Shown here one piece after another: positions 7,701 to 41,271 of a DNA stretch of 58,926 nt; position 1 is the first letter of the stretch; every line of letters begins with the position of its first letter. A model generated the notes under the pieces. The model searched no databases and was not told the DNA's origin. It was given only the letters and a program-made list of their open reading frames with translations. The stretch is taken from positions 1 through 58,926 of the forward strand of contig JAGRFZ010000046.1 of NCBI GenBank assembly GCA_020445785.1, given 5' to 3'. The DNA is from Rhodocyclaceae bacterium. Lineage in GTDB: Bacteria > Pseudomonadota > Gammaproteobacteria > Burkholderiales > Rhodocyclaceae. The translations under genes and the position numbers were made by a program.

Positions 7701-8747
<1,047 letters not shown>

Positions 8748-31709: not shown

Positions 31710-31956
31710 ACCGTGTCGAGGCGGGTTTCGGCGCTGCAGCGTCGCATCCAGCCCCCCGTCGAGCGCGCCCTCGATTCGATGGCCTGGGACCGTGGCAGGT
31801 GTCGCACCGGCCGGCGGCAGCGGCTCAAGAAGGGCGCCGGCATGCCGATGAAAATACGCTGGAACGGCCGCTTCGGCCGGACACGGATCGGCGGCCGGAG
31901 GGGGCCTGCGGAGCGCCCGCCGTCGATCCGCAAATTGCATGAAAGACGGACGCACT

Positions 31957-33996
31957 ATGAGATTTCGATCACTCGGGACATTGTTGCTGGTATTCGTCGC
32001 AGGGCCAGCGCTGGCCGATGGCGATCTGACCAGCATGAGCCTCGAGGACCTCTCGCGAATGGAGGTGACGGCGGTATCGCGCAAGGTCCAGCGGCTGGCG
32101 GACACTGCGGCGGCGGTCACGGTGATCACCGCCGAGGACATTGCCCGGATGGGCGCGCGCTCGATTCCCGAGGCCTTGCGCCAAGTACCCGGCGTGCACG
32201 CAGCGCAGATCGCCCCGGGACAGTGGGCGTTGAGCATCCGCGGGTTCAATGGCCGATTCTCCAACAAACTGCTGGTGCAGATCGACGGCCGGTCGATCTA
32301 TACGCCGTTCTTTGCCGGCGTCTTCTGGGAAGCCCATCAGTTGATGCTGGAAGACATCGAACGCATCGAAGTGGTGCGCGGGCCGGGCGCCTCGCTGTGG
32401 GGCGCCAATGCGGTCAATGGCGTGGTCAACATCGTCACCCGCCGCGCGTCCACCACGGTCGGTTCCCTGGCCTGGCTGGAAGCGGACGACGATGGCCGGA
32501 TGCAGGTCGGGGCCCGCCACGGATTCGCCAACGAGCGCGGCCTCAGCGCACGGGTGTTTGCACGCTCGATCGGCTTCAGCGAGTTCGAAGATGCCGCTGG
32601 GGACGGGCTCGGGAATGCCCAGCATGGCTGGAATGCCGGCTTCCGCGCCGATCTTGCCACCGCAGCCGGCACCGACTGGAGTCTGCAGGGCGGGGCCTAC
32701 CGCCTGCGTGCCCCCGAGCAATTGCAGTTCCCCGGCATCGCACTCGGTTTCGACGTCGACGCGTCGTTGGGCTTCGAGTACGAGGGGGGGCACCTGATGG
32801 TGAGCAGCCAGTGGCCGATGGCTGGCGGCGAAGCGGAGTTGCGTTCCTACGTCGATCACCTGCATGTCTCGGTGGCCGGCACTGCAGGCGGCAACCTCGA
32901 CACCGTCGATGTCGACTTTCAACACCGGCTCGATCCGGTCGGCCGCCACGAATTCATCTGGGGCCTGGGTGCGCGCCACATCGCCTTCGAGTTCGAGCCG
33001 GCGGCTCCGGTACTGACTTTCACCAAGGACGACGGTCGCGAGCACATCGTCAGTGCCTTCGTGCAGGACGAAATCAGCTTGCAGCCGAAGCGCTGGCGGC
33101 TGACCCTCGGTGCCCGCCTCGAGAACAACTCGCTGGCGGGCGCGGAGTGGCAGCCGAATCTGCGCCTGTTGTGGACCCCGACCGACAAGGACAGCATCTG
33201 GACCCACGTCTCCCGAGCTTCGCGGACGCCGTCGCTGGGCGAGCAGTATGCGCGGCTGGTGTCCGGCCTGGTGCCGTTGCCGGAACAACCGCCCATGTGC
33301 GTTCAGTTCCAATTGACCTGTACCAGCGTGATCATTTCCCGTACCGCCCTCGACCGCGAGCTCGAAGCAGAAAAGCTCACGGCGTACGAACTCGGGTACC
33401 GCCGTCAAGTCGGCGCCGGCAGTATCGAGGCGGTCGCCTACCGCCACCAGTTCAAGGATCTGCTGGTCAATACGCTCGGCGACAGCGTCGTTCCCTCCTC
33501 GCTGCCATTCCCGGTGCTGGCCGACCAGTTCATCGATCGTCGCAACGGCGGCGACGCCCACGTCGTGGGCCTGGAGGCGAGTTTCGAGATGCCCGTGGGA
33601 CCGGCGATGCGGCTCTTCGGCTCCTATACGGTTCAAAACCTCGACGAATCCTCCGATGCCGGCGAGCGCGTCCGATCGACCAGCGGCTACGAGGAGGTCA
33701 TGCCGCACCAGTTGGCCAATCTGCGTGCGTCGTTCGACATCGGGCAGGACCATGAGCTGGATTTGATGTGGCGGCGGGTGGGTGCGCTCGGCCGCTCCCG
33801 CTTCGGCGTCGAACTGCCGGCCTATCAGGCGATGGACCTGCACCATCGATGGCGTGTTTCCCGCCAGTTCGAACTGGCGCTCTACGTCCAGAACCTGTTC
33901 GACGATGGCCATGCCGAGTTTGCGGCGGACTTCTTCCCGGCGCCGCTCGGGTATGCGCCTCGCCGCGCCTTCCTCAAAGGCACTGCTACCTTTTAG
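31957..33996 (+). CDS. TonB-dependent receptor-like outer membrane protein
   Basis: A 679-residue outer membrane beta-barrel of the TonB-dependent receptor family. It has a signal peptide (MRFRSLGTLLLVFVAG, ending at ALA-D), a short N-terminal stretch MSLEDLSRMEVTAVSRK, the plug domain (about 45-165, with SIRGFNGRFSNKLLVQIDGR and IEVVRGPGASLWGANAVNGVVNI) and a C-terminal barrel ending in F. This sub-group is often found with YfiR and kinase or GGDEF genes. I see no classical TonB box. Two cysteines (CVQFQLTC) sit in a likely loop. The start at 31957 is chosen for the signal peptide; an ATG at 31939 is possible. It is probably the first gene of the four-gene unit to 39524. Its 5' leader has a CGGCCG-CTT-CGGCCG hairpin at 31865-31879. 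Confidence 0.9.
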   Translation: MRFRSLGTLLLVFVAGPALADGDLTSMSLEDLSRMEVTAVSRKVQRLADTAAAVTVITAEDIARMGARSIPEALRQVPGVHAAQIAPGQWALSIRGFNGRFSNKLLVQIDGRSIYTPFFAGVFWEAHQLMLEDIERIEVVRGPGASLWGANAVNGVVNIVTRRASTTVGSLAWLEADDDGRMQVGARHGFANERGLSARVFARSIGFSEFEDAAGDGLGNAQHGWNAGFRADLATAAGTDWSLQGGAYRLRAPEQLQFPGIALGFDVDASLGFEYEGGHLMVSSQWPMAGGEAELRSYVDHLHVSVAGTAGGNLDTVDVDFQHRLDPVGRHEFIWGLGARHIAFEFEPAAPVLTFTKDDGREHIVSAFVQDEISLQPKRWRLTLGARLENNSLAGAEWQPNLRLLWTPTDKDSIWTHVSRASRTPSLGEQYARLVSGLVPLPEQPPMCVQFQLTCTSVIISRTALDRELEAEKLTAYELGYRRQVGAGSIEAVAYRHQFKDLLVNTLGDSVVPSSLPFPVLADQFIDRRNGGDAHVVGLEASFEMPVGPAMRLFGSYTVQNLDESSDAGERVRSTSGYEEVMPHQLANLRASFDIGQDHELDLMWRRVGALGRSRFGVELPAYQAMDLHHRWRVSRQFELALYVQNLFDDGHAEFAADFFPAPLGYAPRRAFLKGTATF

Positions 33997-34063
33997 GGCT
34001 TGGCTGCCATGACGAGCGCCGAATTCCCCCTGTGTTTCAGACGGTCGTGACCCGCGAACCCAA

Positions 34064-34612
34064 ATGAAAGGACGACTGCTCCGCTCCCTGTCGGCTTTCG
34101 TTCTCGCCCTGGCGATCGGGCAAGTCGCGCGTGCCGAGTTGACCGAATACCAGCTCAAGGCGGTGTTCCTGCTCAACTTCGCGCGCTATGTCGAGTGGCC
34201 TGCCGACAAGCTGCCGGTGGAGGACGCGATCGAGTTGTGCGTGCTGGGCCGCGACCCGTTCGGTGGCGCCCTCTCGACGATCGACGGCAAGCAGGCCCAG
34301 GGTCACGTCGTCCGTGTCCGATTGTTGTCCTTGCCGGAGCAGGCCGAAGCCTGTCATCTTCTGTTCCTGGCGGGGTCGGAGGAACGGCGACTCGGCGCCG
34401 CGCTCAGGGCGCTGGGCGAATTGCCCGTGCTCACGGTCAGTGATATCGACGGATTCGTCGAAGCCGGGGGCGGAATCGGCTTCGCAATGGTGGACGACCG
34501 GGTGCGTTTCGATATCAATGCCCGGGCGTTGGAGGGCGCGAACCTCAAGGCCAGCGCCCAGCTGATGAAAATCGCGCGCACGGTGATTGGGCTCGGGGGG
34601 AAAAGGCAGTGA
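34064..34612 (+). CDS. YfiR-family periplasmic protein (DUF4154)
   Basis: A 182-residue exported protein of the YfiR/DUF4154 family. A signal peptide (cleavage ARA-E, residue 24) is followed by the family core: [68 protein letters not shown] and LMKIARTV. In Pseudomonas, YfiR is the periplasmic repressor of the cyclase YfiN. C59 and C97 match the position of its first structural disulfide; the second pair is missing. There is no clear ribosome site. It overlaps the kinase start by 4 nt (GTGA), which argues that its partner is the kinase. Confidence 0.9.
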
Positions 34613-37374
34613 CGGACTCCGCGGGAATCGCGTTCAGACTCAGGCGCATTCTGATGATTTGCATCGGCATCGCGCTCCTCCTGGCGACGCTGATCATGCT
34701 CGGTGCCGAGTTGCGGGAGGAGGCAGCCCGTGTCGAGCACGAGGTCACTACGCTGGCCGAACTGGTGGTCGAAAATGCGGCCGCGTCCATCCGTTTCGAG
34801 GACGTGAACACCGCAACCCAGTTGCTGAAGTCCCTGCGCCACCTCGACAACGTCGCGCGGGCCACGCTGTTGCGGCCCGACCGTCAGGCCTTCGCGAGCT
34901 ACCGCGCCGAGCCGGAGGAGGAGACGGGCGTGCCGCCGGAATACCGGCTCGACGGCGACGGCAAGCCCCGCTGGGACGGTCTGCACGTGTATCTGGTCCG
35001 GTCCATTCGCGCCGACGGCGAACTGGTCGGCTACGTGGCCATCGCCCAGGACCTCTCGGAACGGGCATGGGACATCGCGGGTCGGGCGGCAGTGGCAGTG
35101 GCGGCGGTAATACTGGCCGCCCTGGTTGCCGTCGCCTTGCTGAAGCGTCTGGTGCGCTCGATCGTCGGACCGCTCCAGTCGCTGGCCGATACCGTCCGCC
35201 ACGTCGGCGCCAGTCGCCGCTACGACATGCGGGTGCCCGAGAACGGGCAGGGTGAAGTCGGTGAAGTGATCGCCGGGGTCAACACGATGCTCGGCGAGAT
35301 CGAGCAGCGGGATCGCGAACTCGAGCAGCATCGCGAGCGTCTCGAGCTGGAGGTCGCCGAAAGGACCGCGGAGTTGGTTTTCGCGAAGGATCAGGCGGAG
35401 AGCGCCAATCGGGCGAAGAGCTTGTTCCTGGCCAACATGAGCCACGAAATCCGTACGCCCCTCAACGGCATTCTCGGCATGACCGAATTGATGCGTGACA
35501 CCCAGCTCGACGGCCGCCAGCAGCGCCTGGTGAACATGCTGCAGGGCTCCGGCGAGTCCTTGTTGAGCATCATTTCGGACATCCTCGACTTCTCCAAGAT
35601 CGAGGCCGGCAAGCTGGACCTCGAAGAAGTGGAATTCTCGCCGGCCAAGGTCGTCGAGGATGTCGCCGCACTGTTCGCCGACCAGGCCGAGGCCAAGCGG
35701 CTCGAACTGGTGGCCGTGATCGACCCGCAGATCCCGGAGCGCGTGGTGGGCGACCCGCACCGCTTCCGCCAGGTGATCGGCAATCTGGTGTCCAATGCGG
35801 TGAAGTTCACGCCGTCGGGCGAGGTCCGGCTCGGCCTAGCGGTTGCCGGCAACACGACCGAACCGGGCCGTTGCGAGTTGCAGGCGGAAATTTCGGACAC
35901 CGGTATCGGTGTCCCGGCAGATGCCCGGACCAGCCTGTTCGATTCCTTTTCCCAGGCCGACAGTTCGATGGCCCGCCGATTCGGCGGCAGCGGCCTGGGC
36001 CTCGCGATCGCTCGTCAGTTGGCCCGGTGCATGGGTGGCGATCTCACCTTCCGGCCGGGCGATATCGCCGGATCGGTGTTCACCGCCAGCTTCGCCTTCG
36101 ACGTCGCCGAGGGGCCGACCGCGTGTCCTGCGGACGGTCCGGCGCCGACTGTCGCCGTGCTGTCGTCGAGCGCACTGGTGCGCGAGGCGATCTGCACCAT
36201 CGGCAGAAGCTTCGGATGGTGGATGCGGGAGTCGTCGCGCCTGGCAGATCTGCTTGCGGCGGGCGGTGCCGACGATTGCGACTGGATCGTGGTGGATCGC
36301 ACCGTCGACGACGCGGATCACATCGGAGCGGTTTCCGGGCTCACCCGGAGCGGGCGTCGGGTGGCTGCACTGACCCGGATCAACGGGTCGATCGATGCCG
36401 AGGAAGCAACCCGCGCCGGGGCCCTGCTGGCGCTGCCGAAGCCTGTCACGCGGCGCGATCTGCGCCGCCTGGCCGACGATTCCGGCCGATCCTGCGAGGC
36501 GCCGAGGGCGCCGCTCGAGCGTTTCGACGTGCGGGTCCTGCTGGCGGAAGATCACCTCGTGAACCTGGAGATCGCGAGCGCGATCCTGCGCTCCCTGGGC
36601 TGTCGCGTCACCGCCGCGGCAAATGGCCAGCAGGCGGCGCATTTTGCATCGATGGAGAGTTTCGACCTGATCCTCATGGATCTGCAGATGCCGGTCATGG
36701 ACGGGCTGACCGCCACCAGCATGATTCGTGAGGCCGAGCGGTCGGGCGGGCGTCCACGGGTGCCGATCGTGGCGCTGACCGCCAATGCACTGAAGGACGA
36801 TCGTGATGCCTGTGTCGCGGCAGGCATGGACGACTATCTGACCAAGCCGGTGAGTCGTGAACGCATTGCCGCCGCCCTGAAACGCTTGCTGCCGGACGCC
36901 GTCAGGATGGAGGCGGCGGCCCCGCCATCGTTGGCGGAGTCTCGCGCCTTGCCATCGGTCGAGCGCGTGGAGGCGCCCAGCGGACGGGTTCCGGCATTCT
37001 CCTGGGAGCCCCTGCTGACGCTGCCAGGGGTCAACGGCAATCGTGAGGCGCCGCTGTTGCCTCGGGTGACCAGGATGTTCATCGACGAGACCGGCCCATC
37101 GCTGCGCATCGCACGCCTGCGCGCCGATGCAGGCGATTGGGAAGAGGTTCGCAAGATTGCCCACAAGACCAAGTCGGCAGCGGCGTCGGTCGGTGCGCTA
37201 CGTTTGTCGGCGCTGGCCACCGAATTGGATGCAATGGTCAAGGCTGGACGCCTGGACGCTGCGGAAGGGCTGCCGACGCGCATGGAGGCAGCGTTCCGCG
37301 ACTACTTGCGGGCACTCTTGCGGGAGGGTCTGGTGGATGAGGCCAATCTCGCCGACTGGAGGTTCGAGAAATGA
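34609..37374 (+). CDS. Hybrid histidine kinase with CHASE8-like sensor, receivers and HPt
   Basis: An inner membrane BarA-type sensor of 921 residues: membrane span about 14-33; periplasmic domain about 34-150 with [21 protein letters not shown], similar to the CHASE8 region of YfiN; second span about 155-180; HAMP; HisKA with H279 ([11 protein letters not shown]); HATPase with DTGIGVP and GSGLGLAIA; a degenerate receiver about 505-630 that lacks the acidic pocket; a normal receiver with D691 ([11 protein letters not shown]); and HPt H852 in [14 protein letters not shown] phosphorelay to the downstream response regulator is inferred. GTG start in GTGA; the end overlaps the next gene by 4 nt. 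Confidence 0.92.
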
Positions 37375-39524
37375 CGGACGCCGTGCAGCCGCGGGTGCTC
37401 CTGGTGGACGATGATTCGACGACGCGGATGCTGACTGCGGCGGCGCTGGTGAACGCAGGGCTCGACGTGGTCGAAGCCGCGGGCGGCAAGGCAGCCTTGT
37501 CGGAATTCGAAAATTGGCTTCCGGACTTGGTGCTGCTCGACGTGATGATGCCGGATCTGGATGGCTTCTCGGTGTGTCGCACGATTCGTTCGAGCCGACG
37601 CGGAGCCTATGTGCCGGTAATCATGCTGACCGGACTCGAAGGCAGCGAGTCGATCGACGAGGCCTACGAGGCCGGTGCGACGGACTACATCTCGAAGCCG
37701 ATCAACTGGACGCTGCTGAGCCATCGGGTTCGCTACGTGCTGCGGGCGGCAGCCACCCGGCAGGCCCTGGCGGTGAGCGAGGAGCGCCTGCTCGAAGCGC
37801 AACGGGTCGCTCGCATGGGAAGTTGGAACTGGCACGCGGCGACGGCACGTCTGGATTACTCCCAGACCTACCCCGAGCTGTTCGGTGTGGACGAGGCGCG
37901 CTTCCCCCATCGCCTCGACGCGCCGTTGTCCCATGTCCATCCCGCCGACCGCGAAGTACTGGAAGATGCGCTGCTGCGCCTGCATCGCGGCGAGGCCTAC
38001 CAGCTCGACTACCGGGCGGTCTGGCCGGACGGCTCGGTCCGCACGCTGCGGGACATCGCCGTGCCCGACGTCGAGGCGGAGGGTGGCGTGGTCGGCGCCC
38101 ACGGCATCGTGCAGGACGTCACCGATCAGGTCGAAGCCGAGCGCCGCATCCGCTACCTGGCCTATTTCGATGCCCTCACCGGCCTACCCAATCGGCACGC
38201 CTTCAGCGAGGCGCTGGATGCGATGCTGGCGCGCGCGGAACGCCAGCAGGAACAGGTCGCCGTTCTGCTGCTCGACCTGCATCGCTTCGGATTGCTCAAC
38301 GACAGCCTCGGTCGGGATGCCGCCGATCATGTGTTGCAGGTGGTGGCATCGCGGGTGCGCGACTTCGCCAGCAAGGTGCTGGGCAGTGGCGACGTGAGTG
38401 ACGATACCGAGTTGGCCGTTGCCGCCCGCTACGGCTCGGATCAATTCGCGGTGATGCTGTGTGGCCCCCATGCCGCGGACGACCGGGCGATCATGGCCGG
38501 GGTGGATGGCCTGCGGGCGGTGGTCGGTGCGCCGATCGAGGTGCTGCGCCATTCGCTGGTCATGCAGATCAGCATCGGCATGGCGCGCTATCCGGTGCAC
38601 GCGCGAGACGCGGAGTCCTCCCTCAAGTGTGCCGAGACCGCGCTGCGCCAGGCCAAGCTCGATCCCGCCCGCGGCTCCGTGCTGGAATACTCGGCGAGCA
38701 TGCGGGAGAGCTCCGTGAGTCGGCTGCAGATCGAGAGCGCGTTGCGTTCGGCGCTTGACCTCGACGTCGGCCTGAGCATGCACTATCAGCCCAAGATCGA
38801 CTTGGCGAGCCGGCGCGTGATCGGCGCCGAGGCCTTGCTGCGGTGGCGGGATCCGACCCTCGGCGATATCTCGCCGGGCGACTTCGTGCCCCTGGCCGAG
38901 GAGATGGGGCTGATCATCCAACTCTCCGAATGGGTCATTGAAGCCGTCTGCCGCCAGGTGGCCGAATGGCGCGACCGGGGCCTGCCGCGCCAGAGCGTGG
39001 CGATCAACCTGTCGGCGGCGCATTTCCGTTTTGCGGGCCTGGTCGATACGGTCACCGGCATTCTCGACCGCTACGGCTTGGACGGACACGACATCGAATT
39101 CGAACTCACCGAAAGCGCGCTGCTCGGCGACCCGGAACTGGCCAGCCAGATCCTTGCGGACCTTCACCGGCGAGGACTGAAAGTCGCGGTGGACGATTTC
39201 GGTACCGGCTATTCGTCTCTCGCCTATCTCAAGCGCTTCCGCCTCAACACGCTGAAGATCGATCGCTCCTTCGTCCGCGACATGGAGGTCGATCGTTCCG
39301 ATGTGGCGATCATCTCGTCGATCGTGGCGATGGCGGAGACCCTCGGTCTCGGTCTGGTGGCGGAAGGGGTCGAGACCATCAACCAGGCGCGTCATCTGAT
39401 GAGCGTCGGCTGCCACGTGATGCAGGGCTACCTGTTTGCCCCGGCGCTGCCGGCCGAGGCCTATGCCGCCCTGCTCAGCGGTGCGCTCGAAACCCTGACC
39501 TCGTTGCCGCCGATCGAGGCCTGA
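37371..39524 (+). CDS. Response regulator with PAS, degenerate GGDEF and EAL domains
   Basis: A 717-residue cytoplasmic regulator with four modules: receiver (1-125, acid cluster D13-D15, phosphoacceptor D57, K at SKPI), PAS/PAC (about 135-265), GGDEF-like domain (about 265-430) and EAL domain (about 445-705). The cyclase signature reads GSDQF at 355-359, so cyclase activity is unlikely, although it may still bind GTP. EAL is intact: E487 in [43 protein letters not shown]. The likely output is phosphorylation-controlled hydrolysis of cyclic-di-GMP. Coupled to the kinase by ATGA. Ends on the same base pair border as the convergent anti-sigma gene. Confidence 0.94.
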
Positions 39525-40238
39525 TCAGATCTGCCAGGAAATCTGGCGCTGAAGAATCGTGTCGATGGCGTCGCGCGACTGGGCCGATTCGGTGACGATC
39601 GCATACCAGCCGCTGCCGGCCGGGCGGGCGGTGGCCGCGAGGCCCCGCAACTGTGCTTCGACGCTTCCTGCGGCGCGGTCCCGCCCCGGAATCAGCAACA
39701 GGGTCGCGGTGCCGTGCTCGGTATCCAGCACGATGTGCCAGCCGGTCCCGCCGGGAACCGGACAAAGCTTCATATAGCGTACGGTGCCGACCGGGGCCTG
39801 GAGCTCGCCGCCGAAGCGGGCCAGAATGGTTCCGAATTCGTTCGGGTCTGCGAGCCGATGGGTGCTCAGGGCCTCGGGTTCGTGCAGCACGTGTTCGATC
39901 GCGAAGCGTGCGTAGTCCTGCCTGCCGGCGGGCAGCCAGGTCGCCATGCCGAGGCCGATCGAAAGCACCACCGTCGCTGCCACGGCCATCAGTCGCCAGG
40001 CGGGTTGCCGGCGGCGCGCACGGATGCGCAGCAGCACACGGTCGGCAAGGCCTTCCGGCACCTGGGCCTCGAGGGCATGGGCGACCTTCTGGTCGTCGGT
40101 ATCGACCTGCTGCGCGAACGCCTGGCAGGCGCGGCAACCGGACTGGTGCATGCGCGCTTCGATCGGCAGTCGGGCCGGGTCGGCGAGCTTTGCACGGCGA
40201 AAGTCGAGGCAGTGGAATTCGGCCTTTGGTTCATCCAC
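39525..40238 (-). CDS. DUF3379-like zinc-motif anti-sigma factor
   Basis: A 237-residue membrane protein with an N-terminal cytoplasmic region containing CLDFRRAKLADP and a zinc-type H-x3-C-x2-C (HQSGCRAC), as in ZAS anti-sigma factors and the DUF3379 family. One membrane span (about 103-122, AVAATVVLSIGLGMATWLP) follows, then a periplasmic domain of about 115 residues with unknown fold. I place the start at a GTG (40238) with AAGGGGAA upstream; it overlaps the sigma factor gene by 8 nt. It is expected to bind and hold the adjacent sigma factor. Confidence 0.82.
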   Translation of the reverse strand: MDEPKAEFHCLDFRRAKLADPARLPIEARMHQSGCRACQAFAQQVDTDDQKVAHALEAQVPEGLADRVLLRIRARRRQPAWRLMAVAATVVLSIGLGMATWLPAGRQDYARFAIEHVLHEPEALSTHRLADPNEFGTILARFGGELQAPVGTVRYMKLCPVPGGTGWHIVLDTEHGTATLLLIPGRDRAAGSVEAQLRGLAATARPAGSGWYAIVTESAQSRDAIDTILQRQISWQI

Positions 40239-40758
40239 GGTCGTTTCCCCTTCGCTGCCGTGCCGGTGCGTCGCCGCCGGACACCAGACCACGCAGCGCT
40301 TGTCTGGCGCGGGTCAGTCGGACCATCGCCGCCCCTTCGCTGATTTCCAGCTGCTCCGCGATCTCGGCGCACGAGAAACCGCCCAGCGTCTGCAGCAGAA
40401 ACGGCTCGCGCAGGCTCATCGGCAGGGCGTCGATCAGTTGCCCGATCTCGTATTCTCCCGCCACGCTGCGGTTGTCCGAGATGGCCAGGTCGTCGAGTTC
40501 CTCGTCGCAATAGTCGAGCCGCTTGCGTTCGTACAGCCGGGCATGCTCGTTGCGCAGAATCCTCATCAGCCAGGGCTTGGGATTGCCCGGGTCACGCAGG
40601 CTCTCCCAGGCGCTCCAGGCCCGCGAAAAGGTTTCCTGCACCAGTTCTTCCGCGACGAAACGGTCGCGGCACAGCCACAGCGCGAAGCGAAACAGATCCG
40701 CACTGAAGGCGCGCACGGTGTGTTCGAACGTGCGTTGTTTTCCGATCGAAAGCAGCAA
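40231..40758 (-). CDS. ECF-type RNA polymerase sigma factor
   Basis: A 175-residue sigma-70 family protein with only regions 2 and 4. Region 2 reads DLFRFALWLCRDRFVAEELVQETFSRAW and PWLMRILRN; region 4 reads LPMSLREPFLLQTLGGFSCAEIAEQLEISEGAAMVRLTRARQALR. Start: the open frame runs much further upstream, but a TTG at 40758-40756 has a perfect AGGAGG eight bases before it and gives the right N-terminus. It is co-transcribed with the anti-sigma gene. Target promoters are not known. Confidence 0.9.
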   Translation of the reverse strand: MLLSIGKQRTFEHTVRAFSADLFRFALWLCRDRFVAEELVQETFSRAWSAWESLRDPGNPKPWLMRILRNEHARLYERKRLDYCDEELDDLAISDNRSVAGEYEIGQLIDALPMSLREPFLLQTLGGFSCAEIAEQLEISEGAAMVRLTRARQALRGLVSGGDAPARQRRGNDRG

Positions 40759-40850
40759 TTGCCGGTCCTCCTGTTGCTTCGACCGGCAGTGGCAGGCATT
40801 CCTTACGGGGTTCGCGGTGGCGCGCGGCGGGCGAGTTGCGGTGCAGCCGT

Positions 40851-40856
40851 TACAAT
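40851..40856 (+). promoter_or_regulatory. Possible -10 box for crcB-hrpA
   Basis: TACAAT ends 31 bp before the crcB ATG. The -35 position is not convincing. No fluoride riboswitch is recognisable in the leader. Confidence 0.35.
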
Positions 40857-40887
40857 CATGCGCTGATCGATATTCGAACCTCCGAAG

Positions 40888-41271
40888 ATGAACGCTGCTG
40901 CCTTCCTCGCCGTCGGCCTCGGCGCCGCCTGTGGTGCCTGGATCCGCTGGTGGCTGGGTACCCGCTTCAATCCGGTATTTGCCCATCTGCCGCTGGGCAC
41001 TCTGGCCGCCAACCTGACGGGTGGCTATCTGATCGGCGTGGCGCTCGCCCTGTTCACCGTCCATCACGGTCTACCGCACGAACTGCGGCTGTTCGTGATT
41101 ACCGGATTCCTCGGTGCATTGACGACTTTCTCGACCTTCTCGGCCGAGGTTGTGCAAATGTTCCAGGCGGCCCATTACGGGTGGGCGGTGTTGACCGCAG
41201 GCACGCACCTCGTCGGCTCGCTGACGATGACTGCCTTCGGATTCTGGACCATCGCCCGCCTGCAGTCCTGA
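40888..41271 (+). CDS. crcB: Fluoride ion channel CrcB/Fluc
   Basis: Exports fluoride through a dual-topology dimer. The 127-residue protein has four membrane spans and the family signatures GAACGAWIRWWLG at the start, LPLGTLAANLTGGYLIGV (N in the pore) and GFLGALTTFSTFSAEV (the Phe-box and TTFST track). It is divergent from the sigma factor. The stop overlaps the hrpA start by one base (TGATG). Confidence 0.95.
   Translation: MNAAAFLAVGLGAACGAWIRWWLGTRFNPVFAHLPLGTLAANLTGGYLIGVALALFTVHHGLPHELRLFVITGFLGALTTFSTFSAEVVQMFQAAHYGWAVLTAGTHLVGSLTMTAFGFWTIARLQS

Follow-up and report, generated by a model that had tools for sequence, protein, structure and literature searches.

A probable Yfi-type relay of TonB-dependent receptor, YfiR, CHASE8 hybrid kinase and EAL regulator in a Rhodocyclaceae bacterium

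The window is the whole 58,926-base contig JAGRFZ010000046.1 of a Rhodocyclaceae bacterium (assembly of 4.58 Mb in 231 contigs). Positions 31957–39524 hold four genes on the plus strand, which encode a TonB-dependent receptor, a YfiR-like (DUF4154) protein, a CHASE8 hybrid kinase with an Hpt domain and a REC-PAS-GGDEF-EAL response regulator. These four probably constitute a Yfi-type relay, in which a signal passes from the receptor to YfiR, from YfiR to the CHASE8 kinase and from the kinase to the EAL regulator. An initial annotation of the DNA described four same-strand genes, the last three overlapping by 4 nt, and the open reading frame (ORF) calls and Pfam domains agree with this. The overlaps are at 34609 (YfiR/kinase) and 37371 (kinase/regulator), and a gap of 67 bp separates the receptor gene from the YfiR gene. 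All Pfam domains reported for the four proteins exceed curated cut-offs.

The relay would operate in four steps. The receptor would bind an outside ligand and change the amount of free periplasmic YfiR, which is the task of YfiB in Pseudomonas aeruginosa. Free YfiR would dock at the membrane-distal tip of CHASE8 around Phe63 and lock the kinase in a single signalling state, which by analogy would be off. Once YfiR has gone, phosphate would pass from H279 to D691, H852 and finally D57 of the regulator, as read from the sequence. The EAL domain, judging from its motifs, would then be switched on and cyclic di-GMP (c-di-GMP) would fall, a sign opposite to that of YfiBNR. The predicted action of YfiR on the kinase is well supported by gene order, natural YfiR-kinase fusions and an interface residue, and the predicted kinase-to-regulator step is supported by gene order, one natural kinase-regulator fusion and an intact EAL domain; the initial annotation had proposed both. 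Repression by YfiR and its relief by the receptor, i.e., the direction of control, would follow by analogy.

The four-gene set is a conserved module. Profile searches with NF053591 (YfiR-like) covered 274 genomes of the class, 40 of which have a match, and 300 of the order, 61 of which do. The census built on them has 153 YfiR genes in 148 loci, i.e., 152 of 162 distinct NF053591 places (a hand count), with wide flanks, and one more; the ten places left out are mostly short contigs, contig ends or weak matches. A TonB receptor immediately precedes YfiR (same strand, less than 1 kb between domains) in 98/153. It is directly downstream in 12 and in either position in 105, and 116 have one within 3.5 kb. 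For comparison, 1105 other ORF-called genes of the 122 initially scanned stretches include only 30 with such a receptor directly upstream, and the receptor-YfiR arrangement is thus far beyond chance. Since the receptor is so often in this position, it is not the unusual sensor at the top of the circuit that it was first taken for. The complete order of four genes is present in 14/153, window included, and the expectation that it would recur in other genomes is borne out.

The gene following YfiR varies more. It encodes a CHASE8 kinase in 80 cases, CHASE8-GGDEF-EAL in 22, CHASE8-GGDEF in 6, CHASE8 with no detected output in 5, a receptor in 12 and another receiver protein in 2. The remaining YfiR genes are fused to a kinase (2), have no recognised partner (22) or are at a contig end (2). 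Next after 19 of the 80 CHASE8 kinases comes a REC regulator that carries GGDEF, EAL or both, and one kinase is fused to such a regulator. A comparison by eye of the 22 places in the order where a kinase scores above the NF053592 cut-off shows 18 co-directional beside YfiR, one divergent and three neither. The same four genes in the same order were also found, with the receptor as query, in one Rhodocyclaceae metagenome-assembled genome outside the census (L063), with 78–93% identity per matched piece. The receptor of this closest relative (positions 7941–9980 of L063) is broken into two ORFs, by an assembly error or a real break. One stretch of another genome (loci L083 and L106; G485, contig C43) has four YfiR genes behind receptors but a lone CHASE8 kinase and its regulator, as though several receptors fed a common output.

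The YfiR-like protein (34064–34612, plus strand) has a signal-peptide-like start, two cysteines and a DUF4154 match of 3.1e-42. It scores 133.5 bits against NF053591, above the cut-off of 125, and 34.8 bits against NF053586, the equivalog of YfiR proper, below the cut-off of 85. The AlphaFold2 model has a pLDDT of 92.5, and its best PDB matches are YfiR entries with TM scores up to 0.74. In the docking account given in PMC3375315, YfiN binds YfiR through an AAVVF segment with an exposed Phe70, and the YfiR side of the contact consists of Val160, Phe162 and Leu183. Alignment places V147, F149 and I170 of the window protein at the equivalents of these three residues (the YfiR chain numbering was worked out here).

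The kinase (34609–37374, plus strand) has a CHASE8 domain (4.9e-11) followed by HAMP, HisKA (H279), HATPase_c, REC (D691) and Hpt (H852), and by these Pfam matches the window CHASE8 protein is a hybrid kinase and not a GGDEF cyclase. Its score against NF053592 is 141.6 bits, below the cut-off of 194. The Hpt domain at the end of the kinase, a feature beyond the initial annotation, makes a putative H279-D691-H852-D57 phosphorelay readable from the sequence, with the four residues in what we take to be their usual roles. Phe63, with its codon at 34795–34797 (plus strand), aligns with F70 in the AAVVF segment of YfiN. A model of residues 1–240 (pLDDT 91.4, pTM 0.77) shows Phe63 just after a helix of residues 7–62. 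The first part of this helix is the first hydrophobic segment, and Phe63 should therefore be at the far, membrane-distal tip of CHASE8.

Across YfiR-adjacent CHASE8 domains, the column of the docking Phe ranks first in conservation among the 145 scored. In a strict set it is present in 107/108 CHASE8 domains beside YfiR, in 6/10 where YfiR is only elsewhere in the genome and in 1/10 from genomes without YfiR (Fisher, 5e-12). Among kinases alone it is present in 79/79 beside YfiR versus 3/10 strictly CHASE8 kinases without an adjacent YfiR (Fisher, 1.7e-8). No DUF4154 (PF13689) match was found in any of the 16 genomes counted as YfiR-free, one of which (G435) is 68% complete. The strict set was defined after a first count, in which 8 of 32 CHASE8-like proteins without an adjacent YfiR had the Phe. 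Twelve of the 32 were then removed: 11 are below the Pfam CHASE8 cut-off, have no CHASE8 match or, in one case (L233), are better matched by another sensor family, and one (L229) is cut by a contig end. Six proteins classed as near, all with the Phe, are outside both tests, and CHASE8 matches of less than 70 residues in the first loci were left out of the counts.

Several CHASE8 kinases differ in their surroundings or length. Three (L184, L185, L186) keep the docking Phe although neither YfiR nor a receptor is present in the 16–17 kb retrieved for them; each is followed by a REC-GGDEF-EAL-REC protein, and their genomes hold YfiR elsewhere. Two very long kinases of about 1760–1790 amino acids with several Hpt-like domains (L152, L153) are directly after YfiR.

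Natural fusions join the proposed partners. In two proteins, L187 (906 amino acids) and L188 (864 amino acids), DUF4154 is fused to HisKA-HATPase-REC. A third, L180, of 1664 amino acids, is a CHASE8-HK-REC-REC-Hpt protein fused to REC-PAS-GGDEF-EAL; it corresponds to the third and fourth window genes in one chain and is encoded behind its own receptor and YfiR. The YfiR tree of 126 domains is poorly resolved. At least 10 changes of the label GGDEF-EAL are required on it, and supported branches force at least two, and a supported clade of L080, L081 and L113 has both outputs under related YfiR proteins.

The regulator (37371–39524, plus strand) consists of REC (D57), PAS_3, GGDEF and EAL domains; the PAS and degenerate GGDEF domains were not part of the initial annotation. 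The GGDEF motif, from residue 355, is GSDQF. A motif alignment shows that the catalytic residues of EAL, in motifs whose meaning we assume to be the usual one, are all present. With EAL intact and GGDEF degenerate, the protein is a predicted phosphorylation-controlled c-di-GMP phosphodiesterase, and breakdown of c-di-GMP is the likely output. Among the census loci, the GGDEF motif is clearly degenerate in 8/23 GGDEF-EAL proteins linked to a receiver or kinase, or in 10/23 if only GGDEF and GGEEF are counted as intact, versus 0/22 of the GGDEF-EAL domains directly on CHASE8 (Fisher for 10/23 versus 0/22, 0.0006, uncorrected for kinship). Some relatives have REC-GGDEF instead and the sign of the output therefore varies among them. 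One of these is in the same genome as the window, where the order is receptor, a gene of no recognised family, YfiR, kinase and REC-GGDEF (contig C1, L065). This genome has a further system of receptor, YfiR and CHASE8 hybrid kinase (contig C212, L064). Another TonB receptor (contig C207, L249) adjoins a same-strand REC-GGDEF-like ORF, and further receptors of this genome may be tied to c-di-GMP.

The receptor (31957–33996, plus strand; alternative start at 31939) has Plug (1.4e-24) and TonB barrel (6.3e-30) domains. It scores 518.7 bits against NF053590 (TonB_dep_TOL0244), below the cut-off of 645. Pfam lists Plug and barrel alone at E 0.01, and no STN domain. In FecA-type systems a TonB receptor transmits a signal through the envelope, as is proposed here. 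The window receptor differs in having no listed STN, and the nearby sigma factor gene is convergent and beside a DUF3379 gene. With no STN on the receptor and no FecR match among the neighbours at 39525–41067, a FecA-like sigma-factor reading was rejected. A SLEDL motif precedes the plug. An N-terminal SLEEL-type pattern does not discriminate signalling receptors in these loci: it is matched by 73/91 receptors directly upstream of YfiR, 4/9 directly downstream and 12/16 other receptors of the same loci.

The distribution of YfiB bears on the role of the receptor. An OmpA-type YfiB-like gene is downstream at all six CHASE8-GGDEF loci (Pfam), and these have no receptor within 3.5 kb. A motif scan found no YfiB-like gene beside the other 147 YfiR genes, but the scan is not exhaustive, since one of the six cases confirmed by Pfam escapes the motif. 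At the window locus the scan is negative, and there is no OmpA match in the four proteins or in four scanned neighbours. With YfiB beside every CHASE8-GGDEF locus and none found at the other types, receptor and YfiB seem to be alternative outer-membrane partners, with the receptor in the place of YfiB. A broader proposal, which we put forward tentatively, is that TonB receptors with no STN and no anti-sigma partner capture or release soluble YfiR that controls CHASE8 kinases and cyclases, so that receptor and YfiR would be a portable sensor placed over swapped inner-membrane outputs. If so, a single receptor class could act on c-di-GMP in either direction or feed a phosphorelay.

Several observations weigh against the proposed relay. 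The receptor-to-YfiR step would follow from gene order and from the separate occurrence of receptor and YfiB, and 20/80 kinases beside YfiR lack a receptor in the directly upstream and downstream positions. One CHASE8 protein in a YfiR-free genome (L197) keeps the docking Phe. The Phe association is largely clade-based: the 128 rows of the strict set give four independent pairs on supported branches, none opposed, with a median p of 0.125, and all 140 rows give 0.25, neither of which is significant. Relatedness may therefore explain the association. Adjacency of the regulator is also incomplete. No regulator is next door to 48/80 CHASE8 kinases, three more are at a contig end, and among the 28 kinases adjoined by a separate receiver gene, 9 have no GGDEF or EAL seen in that gene; the output therefore varies.

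The strongest rival explanation, though an unlikely one, is a hand-over of ligand. The receptor would be a transporter that imports a small molecule, and YfiR, as the true sensor, would bind it and in its loaded form switch the kinase. In its fold, YfiR is similar to a single lobe of substrate-binding proteins. Further down than the YfiR entries, the model also matches 3lkv (TM 0.63), which we take to be a binding protein, 8wgl from Rhodothermus marinus, titled as a substrate-binding protein (0.54), and, at 0.53, the ABC domain 3lft with L-Trp. In Cycloclasticus, the pahS, pahP and pahK genes, with consecutive locus tags, encode a receptor, a periplasmic substrate-binding protein and a kinase, and come from a transposon screen for utilisation of polycyclic aromatic hydrocarbons (PAH), according to excerpts of PMC8547461. 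The likeness to the window is one of description: an outer-membrane receptor, a periplasmic protein and a histidine kinase in one run, with a genetic link to hydrocarbon use. PahP differs in being annotated there as a substrate-binding protein of 318 amino acids. The Thalassolituus receptor TOL_0244, namesake of NF053590, rises sevenfold on n-C28 alkane and is 40.3% similar to OmpS, a receptor required for alkane detection, in the portion of PMC6304351 on this protein. Against a hand-over, the protein-docking patch known from P. aeruginosa YfiR is retained in the window YfiR, whose chain is about half as long as those of 3lkv and 3lft.

Two other explanations are less probable still. Cysteine-based sensing has been proposed for HmsC and YfiR, and YfiR could sense the redox or envelope state through its two cysteines, with the receptor serving for uptake under shared regulation and taking no part in signalling. 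Both cysteines are present in 126/153 aligned YfiR domains, including that of the window (this alignment set differs from the 153 genes of the census). Neither is present in 23/153, and such sensing, which we consider improbable, would leave unexplained both the frequent receptor directly upstream and the failure to see receptor and YfiB together. Slightly less probable again is that the kinase mainly targets another regulator and that the EAL protein answers chiefly to its own PAS domain or to other kinases: 60/80 CHASE8 kinases beside YfiR, including the three at a contig end, have no adjacent or fused GGDEF/EAL regulator, but the other 20 do, one as a single protein, and kinase and regulator genes overlap in the window.

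The proposed relay shares with YfiBNR of P. aeruginosa (and HmsCDE) the YfiR fold and patch, a CHASE8 domain with the docking Phe and envelope control of c-di-GMP. It differs in having a receptor for the OmpA lipoprotein YfiB, a kinase and separate EAL regulator for a GGDEF domain on the sensor, and predicted breakdown instead of synthesis. Section 12 of PMC3375315 (2012) describes distant yfi operons, nearly all without yfiB, in which the GGDEF of YfiN is often swapped for GGDEF-EAL, Hpt or sensor kinases; Thauera MZ1T has a hybrid kinase and two YfiR proteins. These operons are thus similar in pairing YfiR with a hybrid-kinase relative of YfiN, but the section mentions no receptor gene and no EAL response regulator, and the phrase "TonB-dependent receptor" does not occur in PMC3375315. 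The NCBIfam models NF053590–NF053592 name the TOL_0244 receptor, the TOL_0243 YfiR-like protein and HK_near_YfiR_like as a set. The window YfiR is above its cut-off in this set but the receptor and kinase are below theirs, and the EAL regulator has no counterpart among the three models. The initial suggestion that the circuit had not been described as a unit therefore stands in part: kinase-output relatives of YfiN were published and three of the four proteins have family models, but this set includes none for the EAL regulator and no title on a receptor-YfiR link was found in the open-licence literature.

The inner part of the relay was already known to be modular, and less has been explored of the receptor above it. 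For the most part, little is established about how outside signals reach c-di-GMP networks. Should the receptor feed YfiR, outer-membrane receptors of a widespread class could be read as inputs to kinases and to enzymes of c-di-GMP. A defined putative contact point is provided by Phe63 and the YfiR patch, and the links of related receptors to alkanes and PAH, as far as the cited parts of PMC6304351 and PMC8547461 extend, suggest candidate ligands.

On one side the four genes are flanked by flhA and a glutamyl/glutaminyl-tRNA synthetase gene. On the other side (39525–41067, minus strand) are a DUF3379 gene and a sigma-70 gene, convergent with the relay genes. The DUF3379 gene begins 1 base past the stop codon of the regulator, and it may form a sigma/anti-sigma pair with the sigma-70 gene.

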